From positions 1 to 46,582 of IMG/VR virus record IMGVR_UViG_3300034817_000007: 46,582 nucleotides of DNA; one strand, written 5' to 3'. Each line of letters opens with the position of its first letter. Positions within the stretch are counted from its first letter, which is position 1. The DNA is from a virus. The notes beneath the pieces are model-generated. The model was not told the origin of the DNA. It searched no databases and saw only the letters and a program-made list of their open reading frames with translations. Below are positions 9,199-24,051 of the stretch, in pieces. The translations under genes and the position numbers were made by a program.

Positions 9199-9353
9199 CG
9201 GCCCGCCCTCAGCTTGCGGCTGGAGTGCGGCTCCTCGGCCTCGACGGCGATGGTCACGCTGCCCTCGGCCACGAAGCCCGACATCTTCAGGCACGGCTTA
9301 CCCAGCTCGGCGGGACACACCGGGCACTTCTGGAACGACTCCCAGACGGTCAC
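9195..9353 (-). CDS. Small zinc-ribbon protein, 52 aa
   Basis: The N-terminal motif KCPVCPAELGKPCLKMSG is the CPxC-x(n)-GxPC knuckle found in many small actinophage and actinobacterial proteins. Its GTG start overlaps the ERF gene stop. Probably binds zinc; its target is unknown. The place right after ERF suggests a link to recombination. Confidence 0.55.
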   Translation of the reverse strand: MTVWESFQKCPVCPAELGKPCLKMSGFVAEGSVTIAVEAEEPHSSRKLRAGR

Positions 9354-10111
9354 TCGGCACCGCCCACCGTGCGCTCCTTGCGCTCACGCAGCGCGGCGAT
9401 CACCTGGTCGGCCTGGCTGCGCGTCAAGTTCGCGCTTGAGTTGAGAGTGCGGTCGTCGATGCCCAGGATCTTCGCGGTGATGGTCAGCCGGGTGTCCCGA
9501 TTGGCCTCGCCGTCGTAGCCCAACTCGCGCCACAAGGCGTGCATGTGACGGTGCTGGTCCTGGCCGACAGGATCGTTCGGGTCGGCCTCACCAGGCAGCG
9601 GCGGGCGGGCACCACGCGGGCGCTGAGCGGCGCGCTGCGCGGTCCGGCCGCCTTCGGCCGGCTCCTCGGCAGGGCGCTGCTGACGCGGGCGCTGAGCGGC
9701 GCGCTGGGCGTACCGGCCGCCGGACGCCGCGTCCCCGTCGTCGTCCTCGTCCTCGGCTGCAATGCCGGTCACCGCGAGCAGCGCGTAGCGGCGGGCGTAG
9801 GTGATCGCCGAGCCCATCTTCTGCGGCTCGGACAGGTTCAGGGGATAGTCGCCGGTCAGGTACTCGCCGGACGGGACGTGCGCCAGGGTGTAGCGCAGGA
9901 CGAACCGCTCACCGGCCATGGTCGGCAGGCACTTCCAGATGAAGCCGAGTTGGTTCAGTCGGGCGAGGACCACCTTGTTGACCTCGACGAGGTCCGCGTA
10001 CTTGGTCTTCTGGTTGCCGACCTGGCCGGCCTTGCTCTTGGTCAGCACGGGCGGGTCTGCCTGAAGGGCCAGCAGGGCGTCTTCGAGGCTCTCGTGTGCG
10101 GCGTCGGCCAT
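9350..10111 (-). CDS. erf: ERF-family single-strand annealing protein
   Basis: A 253-residue recombinase mediator. Residues 15-135 match ERF, including GSAITYARRYALLAVTGIAA followed by the acidic EDEDDDGD. The middle is a low-complexity linker with two copies of AQRAAQRPR; the C-terminal 80 residues form a separate helical domain. Such proteins anneal single strands made by an exonuclease, which fits the RecB-like nuclease encoded directly upstream (TGATG junction). Together they would form a lambda Red-like pair. Confidence 0.85.
   Translation of the reverse strand: MADAAHESLEDALLALQADPPVLTKSKAGQVGNQKTKYADLVEVNKVVLARLNQLGFIWKCLPTMAGERFVLRYTLAHVPSGEYLTGDYPLNLSEPQKMGSAITYARRYALLAVTGIAAEDEDDDGDAASGGRYAQRAAQRPRQQRPAEEPAEGGRTAQRAAQRPRGARPPLPGEADPNDPVGQDQHRHMHALWRELGYDGEANRDTRLTITAKILGIDDRTLNSSANLTRSQADQVIAALRERKERTVGGAE
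9614..9706. repeat. In-frame direct repeat inside the ERF gene
   Basis: A 24-base identical run at 9614-9637 and 9683-9706, 69 bases apart (23 codons), encodes the repeated AQRAAQRPR of the ERF linker. Its length in frame suggests a simple tandem duplication of linker sequence. Confidence 0.85.
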
Positions 10112-14949: not shown

Positions 14950-15167
14950 GCAGTCACAGTAGGCTGACTGCGCACATGGCGCACCTCGTCCTTTCGGATG
15001 ATTACCGGTAGGTATTTCGTCGGTACCGTGAGGGCATGCAACGCTACGCAAAGCAGCGATACGCAACGGAACGGGAGCGCCATAGGCGTCGCCCCCTGCG
15101 TCTGCACATGCGGGACCAGAACCGGCCGCGGGACAATCGCCCCGCAAACGGCACTTACCGTGACCGC
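14950..15167. promoter_or_regulatory. Divergent lysogeny control region
   Basis: Lies between the leftward excisionase-like gene and the rightward repressor-like gene. A dyad CAGTCA/TGACTG (14951-14956 and 14965-14970) covers the leftward -10-like TACTGT. TACCGTGA occurs at 15024-15031 and 15156-15163 as rightward -10-like boxes. The palindrome TACCGGTA sits at 15003-15010, and TACGCAA is repeated at 15045 and 15060. These are good candidate operator and promoter sites. Confidence 0.6.
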
Positions 15168-15602
15168 GTGGCAGGCTCCCCACTAACCCCCGAGGTCGCC
15201 CGCGCGAGGTTCTCGGCATGGGTCGAGCGCGCCCTTGAAGGCGCCCGCGCACAAGGACTCACCGACCGGGAAATCCAGCGCATCAGCGGCGTCTCGACCA
15301 GCACCTTCCACCGCTGGCGCCTCGCCGGGATCAAAGGCTTGCCGAAAATGCCCCAGGTCCGCGCTTTCGCCGCCGCGACCGGAGCCCGCGTTGAAGACGC
15401 CATGAAAGCACTCGGCATGACCGACGCGGACCCGGAACCCACCCCCGAGCCGCCGTTGCCCCGCGACGTCGTGACGATCATGCGTCGCCTCTCCGACCCG
15501 AACACCCCGGAGTCTGAGCGCGAGTTCATTCGCATGACATTGCAGATGCTCGCCGAACGCGCCGGCGGCAGGCGGCGTGACAGCGGCCAGGCAGCCGGGT
15601 GA
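15168..15602 (+). CDS. Repressor-like helix-turn-helix protein
   Basis: A 144-residue protein. Residues 10-60 hold an HTH: WVERALEGARAQGLTDREIQ, RISGVSTSTFHRWRL, and QVRAFAAATGARVEDAM. The C-terminal half is a Pro-rich linker and a short helix. Its place, divergent from the excisionase-like operon and joined to the integrase gene, suggests the immunity repressor. The GTG has no ribosome site but has TACCGT 6 bases upstream. An ATG at 15036 with its own TACCGT would add 44 mostly basic residues, so two forms are possible. Confidence 0.65.
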   Translation: MAGSPLTPEVARARFSAWVERALEGARAQGLTDREIQRISGVSTSTFHRWRLAGIKGLPKMPQVRAFAAATGARVEDAMKALGMTDADPEPTPEPPLPRDVVTIMRRLSDPNTPESEREFIRMTLQMLAERAGGRRRDSGQAAG

Positions 15603-16864
15603 TGGCGCGCAGCAGATACCCGGCGGTCAGCAAAGGTGAAGACGGGCTCTGGCATGCCTGGGTGACCGTCGGGACCAAGGGCAACGGGCGCCCCGACCAG
15701 CGGCACGTGAAGCGGGCCACCCGCGCCGAGGTCGAGGACCGCATCGACGAGCTGCTGGAGCAGAAACGCGACGGCGCCGTCGTCAAGGCGGGCCGTCCGG
15801 GCACCGTCGCGCATTGGCTGACCACGTACCTCGACACGGTGCTGCCCAGCACCGGCCGATGCGACCCGGGGACCATCCGGGACTACCGGTCGAAGATCAC
15901 GCACTGGGTGCTGCCGGTCATCGGCAACATCCGCCTCGACCGGCTGCAGGTCGACAACCTCGACGAGGTGTATCTGCGGATGCGTCGTGCCGGCCGGGCC
16001 GACTCGACGGTGCTGAAGGTGCACCGGATCCTGTCTCGTGCGTTCGAGGTGGCGCTGCGCCGGCGGCTGGTGCCGTTCAACGTGGCGAAGCGGCGGGATT
16101 CGCCGACGTTCGTTCCCGCGGATCAGTCGCCGCTGAGCCGGGAGGATGCGGCGGCGGTGCTCGCCGTTGCCGGTAGTGCCCGCTGGTCGGTGGCGCTGGC
16201 GCTCGGGTTGCGTCAGGGTGAGGCGCTCGGGTTGCGCTGGTCGTTCGTCGACCTGGACCGGGGTGAGATCCGGGTGTGGTGGCAGTTGCGGCGCCGGGCG
16301 TTCGATCACGGCTGCGGCGGGACGTGCGGGAAGCGGCGGGGCGGCAATTGCCCGCAGCGGGTGATGCCGCTGCACACCGGCGAGGTGACCGTGCTGGACC
16401 TGTCGAAGCCTGCGGACTCCGATCGGCGGACGGGGCTGGTGCTGAAGCGGCCGAAGGGCAACGGGCGGCGGACGGTGCCGCTGCCGGACGAGCTGGTCGC
16501 CGAGCTGCGCGCCCGCCTGGCCGCGCAGCAGGTCGAGCGGGCGCTGGCCGGGTCGCTGTGGCAGGACCACGGGTTCGTCTTCACCCGGCCGGACGGGCAG
16601 CCGATCGATCCGAAGGTGGACTACGCCGCGTGGCAGTCGATTCTGGCGGCGGCGGGAGTTCCGGCGACGAAGCTGCACAACGCACGGCACACGGCGGGGA
16701 CGATCATGACGGTGCTCGGCGTGCCGATCGAGGTGGTGCAGGAGGTCCTCGGTCATTCGGACGTGCGTACGACTCGGGGGTACGTCCACGTTGCCTCGGA
16801 GATGGCGAAGTCGGCTACGGGGCGTATCGGCCGGGAGTTGCTCCGGCGGGCGGATACACCCTGA
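15602..16864 (+). CDS. int: Tyrosine integrase
   Basis: A 420-residue tyrosine recombinase that should join attP to a tRNA-Thr attB. An N-terminal arm-binding region (1-65) and a SAM-like core-binding domain (about 66-165) precede the catalytic domain with R204 in LRQGEALGLRW, a Lys in the KRPKGNGRR hairpin near 285, H359-x-x-R362, H385 in LGHSD and nucleophile Y394. An inserted Cys-rich loop (CGGTCGKRRGGNC, about 238-250) may bind zinc; such inserts occur in actinomycete integrases. The ATG forms TGATG with the repressor stop; a GTG at 15599 is also possible. attP follows directly. Confidence 0.95.
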   Translation: MARSRYPAVSKGEDGLWHAWVTVGTKGNGRPDQRHVKRATRAEVEDRIDELLEQKRDGAVVKAGRPGTVAHWLTTYLDTVLPSTGRCDPGTIRDYRSKITHWVLPVIGNIRLDRLQVDNLDEVYLRMRRAGRADSTVLKVHRILSRAFEVALRRRLVPFNVAKRRDSPTFVPADQSPLSREDAAAVLAVAGSARWSVALALGLRQGEALGLRWSFVDLDRGEIRVWWQLRRRAFDHGCGGTCGKRRGGNCPQRVMPLHTGEVTVLDLSKPADSDRRTGLVLKRPKGNGRRTVPLPDELVAELRARLAAQQVERALAGSLWQDHGFVFTRPDGQPIDPKVDYAAWQSILAAAGVPATKLHNARHTAGTIMTVLGVPIEVVQEVLGHSDVRTTRGYVHVASEMAKSATGRIGRELLRRADTP

Positions 16865-20212: not shown

Positions 20213-21823
20213 ATGGCGGACCTCTTCCGCGTCTGGCTCCCCGTCGCCGGCGCCGTGGCAGCCGTAGCGGCCGACGAGGGGCACATGACCGGCGCCGGAA
20301 TCGCCGCCGTGGCGCTCTGGCGCGCCCGCCGATACCTGCACGAGCGGCGATTCAGGCGCGAGTACATCGAGCCGACGCTGGCCGCGATGTCCCCCGCGCT
20401 CGGCCTGCACGAATCCCACGTCAGGCTGCACGTCGACCCGTCGCTAGGGAACTTGACGCCCAGGCTTGCGAAGCCGCTGTCGCCCACGGAGAAGTGGATC
20501 CGGCTGCAGTACGGCGAGCACGTCGAGCCGGTGTTGCGGTGGTTGCCCGAGCGGGCGCAGCGTGGCGCGTGGAAGGTCCAGGCGTGGGCACGGCCCGTGA
20601 CGGCGAAGGCCGCACTGCTGCGCCGGCCGCGGGAGGACGCCGGCCCGCGGATCGAGCTGGTGGCGCGGACCCCGTATCTGACGAGCGAGCAGCGTCAGCT
20701 TGTGTCAGCGATCGTCAAGGCGAAGATCCCCGCCGGTGACCTGCTGGACTCCTGGCACCAGGTCGGGCCGCGGGTCCGGGTCGTGTGGACCGTACGGAAG
20801 CGGCCACCGTCGGCCGTCGGCCTCGACCACGTCCTGACGCAACTGCCCAACCTGAAGGAGTGGGAGTTCTACATCGGCCAGGCCGCCGGGGACGTCCCCG
20901 TGGTGGTGTCGCTGCGCGACGACTCGCCGCACATCTCGGAGAGCGCCGGATCGGGCGCGGGCAAGAGCGTGCTCGCCATGCTCATCGCCGTGCAGGTGCT
21001 GAACCGCGGCGGCCGGGTGCTGCTGCTGGATCGGAAGGGCTCGCACCGGTGGGCGCTGGGCATGCCGGGCGTCGACTACTGCACCAAGGCACCCCAGATG
21101 CACGACGCGCTGCTGCAGGTCTCGGCCATGGCCAACGAGCGCAACGACCTGGCCCTGCACGAGGAGGAGGACTGGGATCCAGGCCCGCGCACGCTGGTGA
21201 TCGCCGAGGAGTTGAACGCGACGATCGCGCAGCTCGCGAACTACTGGGCCGACGTCCGGGAGAAGGGCGAGCCGAAGAAATCCCCGGCGATTGCGGCGCT
21301 GGCCGATCTGCTTTTCATGGGCCGCTCGGCGAAGGTCAACGTTCTGGCCATTGCGCAAATGCTCACCGCCCGGGCGATCGGTGGCCCGGAGGCCCGGGAG
21401 AATTTCGGCATTCGCTGCCTCGCTCGCTATACGGCGAACAACTGGAAAATGCTCGTGCCCGAGGCTGCGATGCCCCGCGCGTCGCGGACTCTGGGCCGCT
21501 GGCAGGTCGTGATCGGCGGAACAGCCATAGAGGTACAAGTCGCCTACCTCACCACAAAACAGGCCCGCGCCCTCGCGAACCCGGGCGCGGGGCTTGATAG
21601 CGCATTGAGCAGGGAAGTTACCGGTGACGGTAACAAGGTGACCTTGCGGGAGGCCGCAGACGCCAGGCTGATCCCCTGGTCGTACGAGGCGGCGAAGCAG
21701 CGGCTGTATCGGCGCGTCGGGAATCTGCCGGAACCGCGCGGCACGAAAGGCAAGTCGTTCCTTTACGAGGAAGCGGATTTGGTGCGCTGGGTGGAGAGCG
21801 TGAAGTCGGAGTCGGTGGGATGA
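20213..21823 (+). CDS. FtsK/SpoIIIE-type DNA translocase (Tra-like)
   Basis: A 536-residue ATPase. A weak hydrophobic N-terminus (10-38) may touch the membrane. Walker A SGAGKS is at 247-252 and Walker B TLVIAEE at 327-333; an FtsK-like LLDRKG follows the first strand. The C-terminus (about 480-536) is a MerR/AlpA-like winged helix (LREAADARLIPWSYEAAKQR ... GKSFLYEEADLVRWVES) in place of the FtsK gamma domain. In AICEs such proteins move double-stranded DNA between cells. In a phage the role is unknown: conjugal spread, or moving phage DNA within the host. The ATG has AAGGAGG. Confidence 0.85.
   Translation: MADLFRVWLPVAGAVAAVAADEGHMTGAGIAAVALWRARRYLHERRFRREYIEPTLAAMSPALGLHESHVRLHVDPSLGNLTPRLAKPLSPTEKWIRLQYGEHVEPVLRWLPERAQRGAWKVQAWARPVTAKAALLRRPREDAGPRIELVARTPYLTSEQRQLVSAIVKAKIPAGDLLDSWHQVGPRVRVVWTVRKRPPSAVGLDHVLTQLPNLKEWEFYIGQAAGDVPVVVSLRDDSPHISESAGSGAGKSVLAMLIAVQVLNRGGRVLLLDRKGSHRWALGMPGVDYCTKAPQMHDALLQVSAMANERNDLALHEEEDWDPGPRTLVIAEELNATIAQLANYWADVREKGEPKKSPAIAALADLLFMGRSAKVNVLAIAQMLTARAIGGPEARENFGIRCLARYTANNWKMLVPEAAMPRASRTLGRWQVVIGGTAIEVQVAYLTTKQARALANPGAGLDSALSREVTGDGNKVTLREAADARLIPWSYEAAKQRLYRRVGNLPEPRGTKGKSFLYEEADLVRWVESVKSESVG
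21617..21646. promoter_or_regulatory. Candidate translocase recognition (clt-like) site
   Basis: Inside the translocase gene, GTTACCGGTGACGGTAAC (21617-21634) is a dyad with 7-base arms, followed by CAAGGTGACCTTG (21634-21646), itself a palindrome. Together they hold GGTGAC, GGTAAC and GGTGAC spaced 6-8 bases apart. Streptomyces tra genes are known to have their cis-acting transfer locus near the 3' end of tra, so this is a plausible recognition site for the winged helix encoded next. Confidence 0.4.
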
Positions 21824-22668: not shown

Positions 22669-23022
22669 CTAGGCCTGCTTGGTGCCGACCGCGCTGACCG
22701 GTGCGACGACCTGGGTGCGCACGAACGCCGCGGCGACGGCGCCGACGAACGACATGATCACGGCCTGGTTCTCGGCGCTGACGTGCAGCCCGAAGCCGAT
22801 GGCGAGTGCGAGCAGGGCCTGGGCGACGCCGAGGAGGGCGGCGACCTGCCCGTCCCGCTGAACCCACACGGCGACGATCATCGCGGCGATGGCGGTGGCG
22901 GCGGCGTTGAGGACGGCCTGCTGCTCGCCGGTGAGGTGGAAGACGAACGCGCTGGCGAGCCGGGCCGCGGTGGCTACGAGCGTCAGCCAGAGCGCCGGGT
23001 CGCGCGAGAACTTGAACGACAT
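22669..23022 (-). CDS. Holin-like membrane protein, 117 aa
   Basis: Three to four hydrophobic helices: WLTLVATAARLASAFVF, AVLNAAATAIAAMIVAVWV, VAALLGVAQALLALAIGFGL, AVIMSFVGAVAAAFVRTQV. GGAGGTAAGCC precedes the ATG. The place downstream of the lysin and other membrane genes fits a holin or holin partner. It is the last gene of the late operon. Confidence 0.65.
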   Translation of the reverse strand: MSFKFSRDPALWLTLVATAARLASAFVFHLTGEQQAVLNAAATAIAAMIVAVWVQRDGQVAALLGVAQALLALAIGFGLHVSAENQAVIMSFVGAVAAAFVRTQVVAPVSAVGTKQA

Positions 23023-23033
23023 GGCTTACCTCC

Positions 23034-23051
23034 GAACGTGTGTTCTAAGGT
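23034..23051 (+). promoter_or_regulatory. LexA-type SOS box and -10 element
   Basis: GAACGTGTGTTC (23034-23045) fits the actinobacterial/Gram-positive LexA core GAAC-N4-GTTC exactly and is preceded by C as in the fuller consensus. TAAGGT (23046-23051), a TANNNT -10 box, follows at once, 6 bases before the GTG start at 23058. LexA bound here would cover the promoter. Confidence 0.65.
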
Positions 23052-23057
23052 GCGAGG

Positions 23058-23312
23058 GTGGAGCGGGTCTTCGAGACGCCGATGCGCGGTGCGGTACGGC
23101 AGTGGTGGCGCAACGGTGACCCGTGGGATCAGCGCGCTACGCAGGTGTTCGTCGGTGAGCGCGACGGATGCTGGTATGCGCGCTGGCACGGCAGGCCGGG
23201 GGTTCTGCGCCCGGGCGCTGCGGTGTACGCCGGGCTGCACGCCGAGTGGTACGCGCGGGCCACAGCCAGGCGGTGGATGCGGACCGTCGGAGGCGATTGG
23301 GTCGAGGCCTAG
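23058..23312 (+). CDS. SOS-box-controlled small protein, 84 aa
   Basis: A Trp/Arg-rich protein (eight Trp in 84 residues), beginning MERVFETPMRGAVRQWWRNG and including GCWYARWHGRP and EWYARATARRWM. It is the only rightward gene within the leftward late block and appears to use a leaderless, LexA-controlled promoter. Its TAG shares CTAG with the stop of the convergent late gene. No family is recognised. By position and control it could be an antirepressor or another induction factor, but that is hypothesis. Confidence 0.6.
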   Translation: MERVFETPMRGAVRQWWRNGDPWDQRATQVFVGERDGCWYARWHGRPGVLRPGAAVYAGLHAEWYARATARRWMRTVGGDWVEA

Positions 23313-23665
23313 CGCCCGTTCGCGGCGGCCGCGGGCGGGTCTATCGGGCCGATCAGCTCCCGCAGCCGCTCGATCGTCATGCCCGGCCGCCACGTGTGCC
23401 GGCGCATCGTCTGATGCTCGGCGATCCAGTGGTCGGCCTCGCGGGTCACCGCGTCGAGCTGGCGGCGCAGCTCCCGGACCTGGGTTCGCAGCTGCTCGAC
23501 TTCCTCGCGGGCGTCGATCGCGTCCTGCCGTAGCTCCTTGACCCAGCCGAGGTTCGCTGCCTGCTGGTTGACGTCGTTGGCCCGCGACGAGGACCGGTAG
23601 ACCAGGTACGCGGCGACCAGGCCGGGCACGCCTGCGATCAGCGCAACGACGATGGTTTTGTCCAC
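23309..23665 (-). CDS. Membrane-anchored coiled-coil protein (lysis block), 118 aa
   Basis: One N-terminal transmembrane helix (TIVVALIAGVPGLVAAYLVY), then a long coiled coil (about 40-78, LRQDAIDAREEVEQLRTQVR) and a basic tail with RPGMTIERLREL. This topology is typical of proteins in actinophage lysis cassettes that act as holin partners or spanin-like proteins. The GTG start overlaps the upstream gene by 28 bases. Confidence 0.6.
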   Translation of the reverse strand: MDKTIVVALIAGVPGLVAAYLVYRSSSRANDVNQQAANLGWVKELRQDAIDAREEVEQLRTQVRELRRQLDAVTREADHWIAEHQTMRRHTWRPGMTIERLRELIGPIDPPAAAANGR

Positions 23666-24051
23666 GTCGTCCCCTTCTCGTCTCCCGGCTCCGGCCAGCT
23701 CGCGATCACGCTGACCGCGTAGGCGAGGCCGAGCCAGATCGCGGCTGATACGTACCCGCGGTCGACGCCGCCGAACAGCCACGCGCCGAGGGTGACGACG
23801 CCCCAGCAGATCTTCAGGCAGATCGCCGCGGCGTACCCGATGCCGTCGCGCCGGCAGAACGCCTGCCACAGGCACGTCACGCCGACGCCGCCCCAGGCCA
23901 GCGCCCACACCCACAGCGGCGCGATCTGCGCCAGCCACACGAACATCGGGACACGCCGGGTCACTGCATCCGGCGCCGACAGGCTCACCGCGTACACGAC
24001 GTCGAGCGCGCCGAAGAACAGCAGCATCCGGCCCCGCTTGCCGACATGCAT
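23638..24051 (-). CDS. Four-helix membrane protein, putative holin, 137 aa
   Basis: Hydrophobic helices at about residues 8-25, 37-62, 70-92 and 100-118 (FVWLAQIAPLWVWALAWGGV, AAICLKICWGVVTLGAWLF). It lies directly after the lysin gene, the usual place for a holin. The C-terminus is charged. Confidence 0.6.
   Translation of the reverse strand: MHVGKRGRMLLFFGALDVVYAVSLSAPDAVTRRVPMFVWLAQIAPLWVWALAWGGVGVTCLWQAFCRRDGIGYAAAICLKICWGVVTLGAWLFGGVDRGYVSAAIWLGLAYAVSVIASWPEPGDEKGTTWTKPSSLR

Follow-up and report, generated by a model that had tools for sequence, protein, structure and literature searches.

A putative LexA-controlled accessory gene beside the holin of a temperate phage with probable Micromonosporaceae hosts

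Among the leftward late genes of a soil phage (IMG/VR record IMGVR_UViG_3300034817_000007, positions 1 to 46,582, all 46,582 nt of which are referred to here as the window), a short gene read in the opposite direction is preceded by a palindrome of the SOS-box type. This raises the questions of whether the host repressor LexA controls the gene and of what its product would do for the phage. A prior sequence-only reading had described an exact match to the LexA core, followed directly by TAAGGT and, six bases further on, by a GTG start codon; the positions of all three elements (23034-23045, 23046-23051, and 23058) were verified. The encoded protein is Trp-rich as described (84 residues including 8 Trp, with a TAG stop codon at 23310-23312), and its gene is the sole rightward one in this region, all other called ORFs from 22669 to the right end of the window being leftward. 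The locus comprises the following features:

23033-23047: extended conserved block CGAACGTGTGTTCTA around the box core
23034-23045, + strand: LexA-type SOS box core GAACGTGTGTTC, of a type also found upstream of Micromonospora lexA
23046-23051, + strand: putative -10 element TAAGGT, abutting the box; several chromosomal relatives share TAAGGT 6-7 nt before ATG
23058-23312, + strand: SOS-box gene, 84 aa, likely a remote relative of a Micromonosporaceae small-protein family
22669-23022, - strand: holin (phrog_9752, E 4.6e-22), divergent from the SOS-box gene
23309-23665, - strand: late gene converging on the SOS-box gene, with weak spanin-like matches (searched as 23309-23668)

A gap of 35 nt separates the start of the 84-aa ORF from that of the holin, and at the other end the ORF and the convergent gene overlap by 4 nt at their stops.

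The first question is whether the palindrome is meaningful at all. GAACN4GTTC occurs once in the window, as GAACGTGTGTTC, with 0.63 occurrences expected by chance and at least one present in 48 of 100 shuffles, so a single box is not significant by itself. Rather, the box is taken as real because it is conserved across relatives. A protein search of IMG/VR recovered loci L001, L004, L005, and L008 as well as a truncated locus, L006. The pattern CGAAC[AG][CT]GTGTTCTA was present in 5/5 protein-found phages with upstream DNA (the window plus the other four loci, the truncated one not being counted), and the distance from the end of the core to the start codon was 10 nt in the other four and 12 nt in the window. 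A scan with the box pattern added two loci with the family gene (L011 and L015) and one (L017) that shares box and holin but carries a different, 61-aa ORF; two further pattern matches (L010 and L014), from AT-rich contigs where the ORF has 17 aa, were discarded. Among seven copies of the protein, dN was lower than dS in 21/21 pairs, the ratio being high in distant pairs. A chance palindrome next to a non-coding ORF would agree with the expectation of 0.63 per window and with the outcome of codon-usage scoring, in which the ORF at 23058-23312 was not called. However, box, spacing, and protein are conserved in independent contigs, and an accident of this kind, already unlikely given the relatives, is scarcely credible.

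Would a host LexA recognize this box? The hosts are probably Micromonosporaceae, as indicated by one line of evidence, the relatives of an FtsK-like protein encoded at 20213-21823 of the window, which in named genomes belonged to Micromonospora, Plantactinospora, or Salinispora at 11/11 loci. This FtsK/HerA-like protein has 536 aa, and its relatives in Micromonosporaceae genomes (48-71% identity) suggest exchange between the window phage and integrative elements. In six Micromonospora/Plantactinospora genomes, each of which carries a gene for a LexA DNA-binding domain, CGAACRNNYGTTC gave 133 matches versus 33 for its backward control (strand counts summed). Only this broader box is enriched; the exact phage 15-mer CGAACRYGTGTTCTA, which includes the TA, was found in 0/6 of these host-family genomes. 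Further, GAACGCGTGTTC precedes lexA of M. veneta, and the identical core is present in four of the phage loci (L001, L005, L011, and L015). Twenty chromosomal box sites were fetched and 18 were read, several of them lying inside genes; one, from M. andamanensis (L083), was taken further. The actinobacterial -10 consensus is TAnnnT, a form that TAAGGT takes. By sequence, then, a LexA-consensus palindrome lies at the promoter of the 84-aa gene and abuts its putative -10 element, with transcription predicted to start at or adjoining the GTG at 23058; because only six bases separate box and -10 element from the start codon, the mRNA would probably be leaderless.

The box in M. andamanensis precedes a 75-aa gene, the product of which begins MEQRKHLWNGKWGRL. 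Matches to this 75-aa family, paralogues included, were found in 109/150 Micromonosporaceae genomes and in 38/249 genomes of the order. A phylum-level search that scored at most 18 candidates per genome found the family in 2/296 genomes (G006 and G009), both of which are also in the set of 150. The family, named WWNG in this analysis after its motif, is likely restricted to Micromonosporaceae. In the best 30 chromosomal loci, GAACN4GTTC was perfect in 22 and had one mismatch in 8, and TAnnnT and then a start codon always followed the box, the hexamer being TAAGGT in several cases. Among 20 further chromosomal loci the box was perfect in 2, had one mismatch in 7, and was missing from 11, these box-less genes being more distant paralogues. 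The phage genes and the chromosomal SOS subfamily therefore share a closely spaced series of LexA box, TAnnnT, and start codon. The claim that a LexA-type box and promoter serve the 84-aa gene holds up on these data, with a conserved box, a near-fixed spacing, and a layout shared with the chromosomal family. Separately, paralogues L119 and L122-L131 (VRVERHWWNG...) lack a LexA box, and in most of them a motif resembling TGCTATACCGT lies immediately ahead of the start codon; this is possibly a second leaderless promoter class within the family.

The chromosomal loci also bear on the idea that some regulator encoded by the phage itself, rather than LexA, has the palindrome as its operator. The window phage does encode several small HTH proteins that might fill such a role. 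Yet the core is of the same type as that before M. veneta lexA, the identical layout recurs at the chromosomal gene family, and the box agrees with the inner portion of tCGAAC-N4-GNNCGa, the LexA motif of Streptomyces (PMC9380542). A phage-encoded regulator is therefore very unlikely.

The relationship between the phage proteins and the WWNG family is distant. The two align over WW-NG-W...RW.V...GG...W.E, and hhalign comparisons returned 57% (E 1e-4), 78% with more diverse sets (E 1.8e-5), and 15.9% with one choice of rows. BLASTP gave E 0.006, and 32 of the 52 rows of the chromosomal set outscored the best of 1,240 shuffled decoys. The 84-aa phage protein is thus likely a remote homolog of the roughly 75-aa Micromonosporaceae proteins. 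Searches of the window protein against Pfam, NCBIfam, PHROG, and PADLOC gave no match at the limits used, in keeping with the earlier description of a protein without a known family. Nothing convincing came from the 'phages' and 'plasmids' collections; the former had no relative, and the matches in the latter, to a hypothetical protein and to TraN, reached 31-32% identity at E 0.6 and were not retained. Profile matches in the PDB to alphaRep proteins (best E 4.6e-5) and a trypsin inhibitor looked compositional, no alphaRep stretch passing alone, and were likewise set aside. Two AlphaFold models of modest confidence (pLDDT 69 and 63) share a predicted b-b-b-a core, and a Foldseek search against the PDB gave no match below E 0.2. 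In a structural second look, WGR domains of PARP, the type that binds DNA breaks, made up 10 of the 12 top rows at Z 4.9-5.6, a range that the tool calls common and that was obtained with a low-confidence model; the same look with the model of another phage protein (L139) gave nothing above Z 3.9. At the sequence level the WGR domain was rejected, hhalign returning 0.1% and 0.4% and the WGR profile giving no support. The chromosomal neighborhoods offer no functional clue, since mscL adjoins the family gene in 3/7 loci scanned (near L090, L105, and L106) and no repair gene was seen in these seven loci.

What, then, is the standing of the gene in the phage? A search based on the holin, and hence blind to the box, gave nine loci, or ten with the window. 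The box was present in 7/10 (the window, L142, L143, L146, L147, L148, and L149) and absent from L144, L145, and L150, the slots of which hold no family ORF. Within the seven box-bearing loci the family gene is intact in three (the window, L142 on the contig of L011, and L148 on the contig of L015), replaced in one (L146, on the contig of L017), and lost or frameshifted in three, being absent from L143 and L149 (the latter on the contig of L030) and shortened with its end out of frame in L147. Overall, 7/10 holin-related loci have a slot from which the gene is absent or in which it is replaced or damaged. The 61-aa ORF that occupies the slot in L017 (9793-9978) appears ribbon-helix-helix-like by eye and had no match in the family searches. 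Close relatives of the window thus lack or replace the 84-aa gene while its flanks are kept, and, as read from sequence, its box, -10 element, and opposite strand provide a promoter independent of the late operon. Taken together, the gene behaves like an exchangeable, dispensable accessory cassette (a moron), the promoter of which appears to outlive its cargo.

A promoter that outlives its cargo could also mean that the LexA site serves the lysis genes, either as a roadblock or by blocking a holin promoter, such that lysis would be licensed by removal of LexA and the small gene would be a secondary passenger. The box touches the ribosome site of the holin, and the core is intact in 3/3 holin loci in which the gene was lost or broken (L143, L147, and L149); it is this retention of the palindrome that keeps a LexA gate on the holin under consideration. 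Arguing against it, unrelated types of leftward membrane protein adjoin the identical box (a search found no match between those of L001 or L005/L008 and that of the window), and three holin relatives (L144, L145, and L150) have no box. Moreover, the conserved TA lies on the side of the small gene and, in L149, was mutated together with the loss of that gene. A gate on lysis is accordingly judged quite improbable as the main role of the site.

Family members also occur in phages outside the group of the window. The contigs L139 and L140 encode clear WWNG-family proteins, closer to the chromosomal members, with the late genes opposed to them and with one-mismatch boxes (GAACAGATGTAC and GTACAGTTGTTC, respectively) in front. 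As read from translations, the neighbor of the family gene in L140 looks holin-like, and a lysozyme-like gene is nearby in L139. No relative emerged when genomes were scanned with the first phage alignment; a later profile search found three chromosomal copies of the phage type in 300 genomes. In L158 a perfect box and then TAATAT precede the GTG; L157 has no box; and L156, also without a box, lies in a prophage (tape-measure and integrase genes) and is divergent to a holin-like gene. The L158 gene is about 5 kb from an FtsK-like gene (L161 738-2852), perhaps within an integrated element.

The sequence-only reading had gone further and cast the gene as an induction switch. The genes relevant to this proposal lie elsewhere in the window:

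15036-15602, + strand: repressor-like protein (phrog_5301, E 2.4e-7), overlapping the integrase gene
15599-16864, + strand: phage integrase, indicating a temperate phage

The window also encodes an ERF recombinase (9350-10111) with a C-terminal stretch that weakly resembles Mu GemA. According to the switch proposal, a protein made under SOS conditions would bind the phage repressor, with the protein at 15036-15602 as the candidate partner or another in its place, and trigger the lytic cycle. The LexA-type promoter and small size of the gene are compatible with this, as is the report that the Gifsy antirepressor genes lie outside the immunity region under LexA control (PMC3121763). Repressor-like relatives were detected in 3/14 related records, all with the family gene (L001, and L139 and L140, which are unrelated to the window phage); counting the window, this makes 4/9 records with the family gene versus 0/6 without, although the co-occurrence reaches only P=0.09 in a one-sided Fisher test. 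Against the proposal, the gene is intact in three records of 37-49 kb (G797, G798, and G799) with no detectable repressor-like relative, and the losses and replacements described above affect 4 of the 7 box-bearing holin loci. Further, its relatives are found on the chromosomes of probable hosts, where they have LexA boxes of their own, and in a PHROG scan the window protein matched no family, antirepressors included. The role as induction switch is thus not supported, and an antirepressor is considered an unlikely, if reasonable, identity for the protein.

The explanation favored here, with somewhat better than even confidence, is that the 84-aa protein is a phage-borne SOS effector that acts on host physiology in the damaged lysogen. 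It is held to be the most likely because the chromosomal relatives carry the identical promoter layout. In this model, a temperate phage would keep among its late genes an accessory gene controlled by the LexA of its host, and LexA sitting on 23034-23045 would mask the DNA immediately 5' of the TAAGGT element and so block RNA polymerase. Upon DNA damage, removal of LexA would permit synthesis of a leaderless mRNA from at or near the GTG, and the prophage would produce the protein without need of the late promoter, to act on the host before or during induction. Several observations weigh against an effector: the homology is remote, L156 and L157 lack boxes, those of L139 and L140 have a mismatch, and the hosts are suggested only by FtsK-like relatives. 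The gene appears to be a divergent copy of an SOS gene from the chromosomes of the probable hosts, which suggests that these phages borrow the damage response of their hosts. A broader scheme is doubtful: that an SOS-effector family concentrated in Micromonosporaceae chromosomes has repeatedly been carried by phages into the lysis cassette with its leaderless LexA-box promoter, that the LexA site also gates the holin such that the LexA state of the host licenses lysis, and that the slot swaps cargo while keeping its promoter.

In the literature searched (titles and abstract openings), nothing was found on the 84-aa/75-aa protein family or on LexA-controlled genes in Micromonospora phages, and to that extent neither the family nor its chromosomal relatives nor the holin slot has been described so far. 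The locus provides a concrete, testable case of actinophages in which one accessory gene next to the holin would be placed under host LexA; it also points to a LexA-box small-protein family that matched no family model, in a major family of antibiotic-producing bacteria. Should it prove to be an SOS effector, the protein would offer a way into the handling of DNA damage by these bacteria and their prophages.

Phage morons are accessory genes that sit among late genes and bring a promoter of their own. The 84-aa gene is like them in having its own promoter, in lying on the strand opposite its neighbors, and in being gained, lost, or swapped while the flanks stay; it differs in that its promoter has a LexA box, is probably leaderless, and persists after loss or exchange of the cargo. 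Likeness to the S. venezuelae LexA regulon lies in the fit of the inner box to that motif, while the host group is a different one; one target of that regulon (pvnz_37140) has its site at -14 (PMC9380542). LexA-controlled antirepressors include Tum of phage 186, AntC of N15, and GfoA, GfhA, and GftA of the Gifsy prophages. The Gifsy LexA operon also carries a homolog of the host SOS gene dinI (PMC3121763). Given these antirepressors and the fit to the S. venezuelae motif, a LexA-controlled accessory gene is of a known kind. The window gene would share with the antirepressors a small phage protein, host LexA, and a position outside the immunity region, and an antirepressor role, if it had one after all, would make it an actinophage equivalent of Tum. 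It differs from them in standing alone next to the holin, in being dispensable to related phages, and in its likely relationship to a chromosomal family of the probable hosts.
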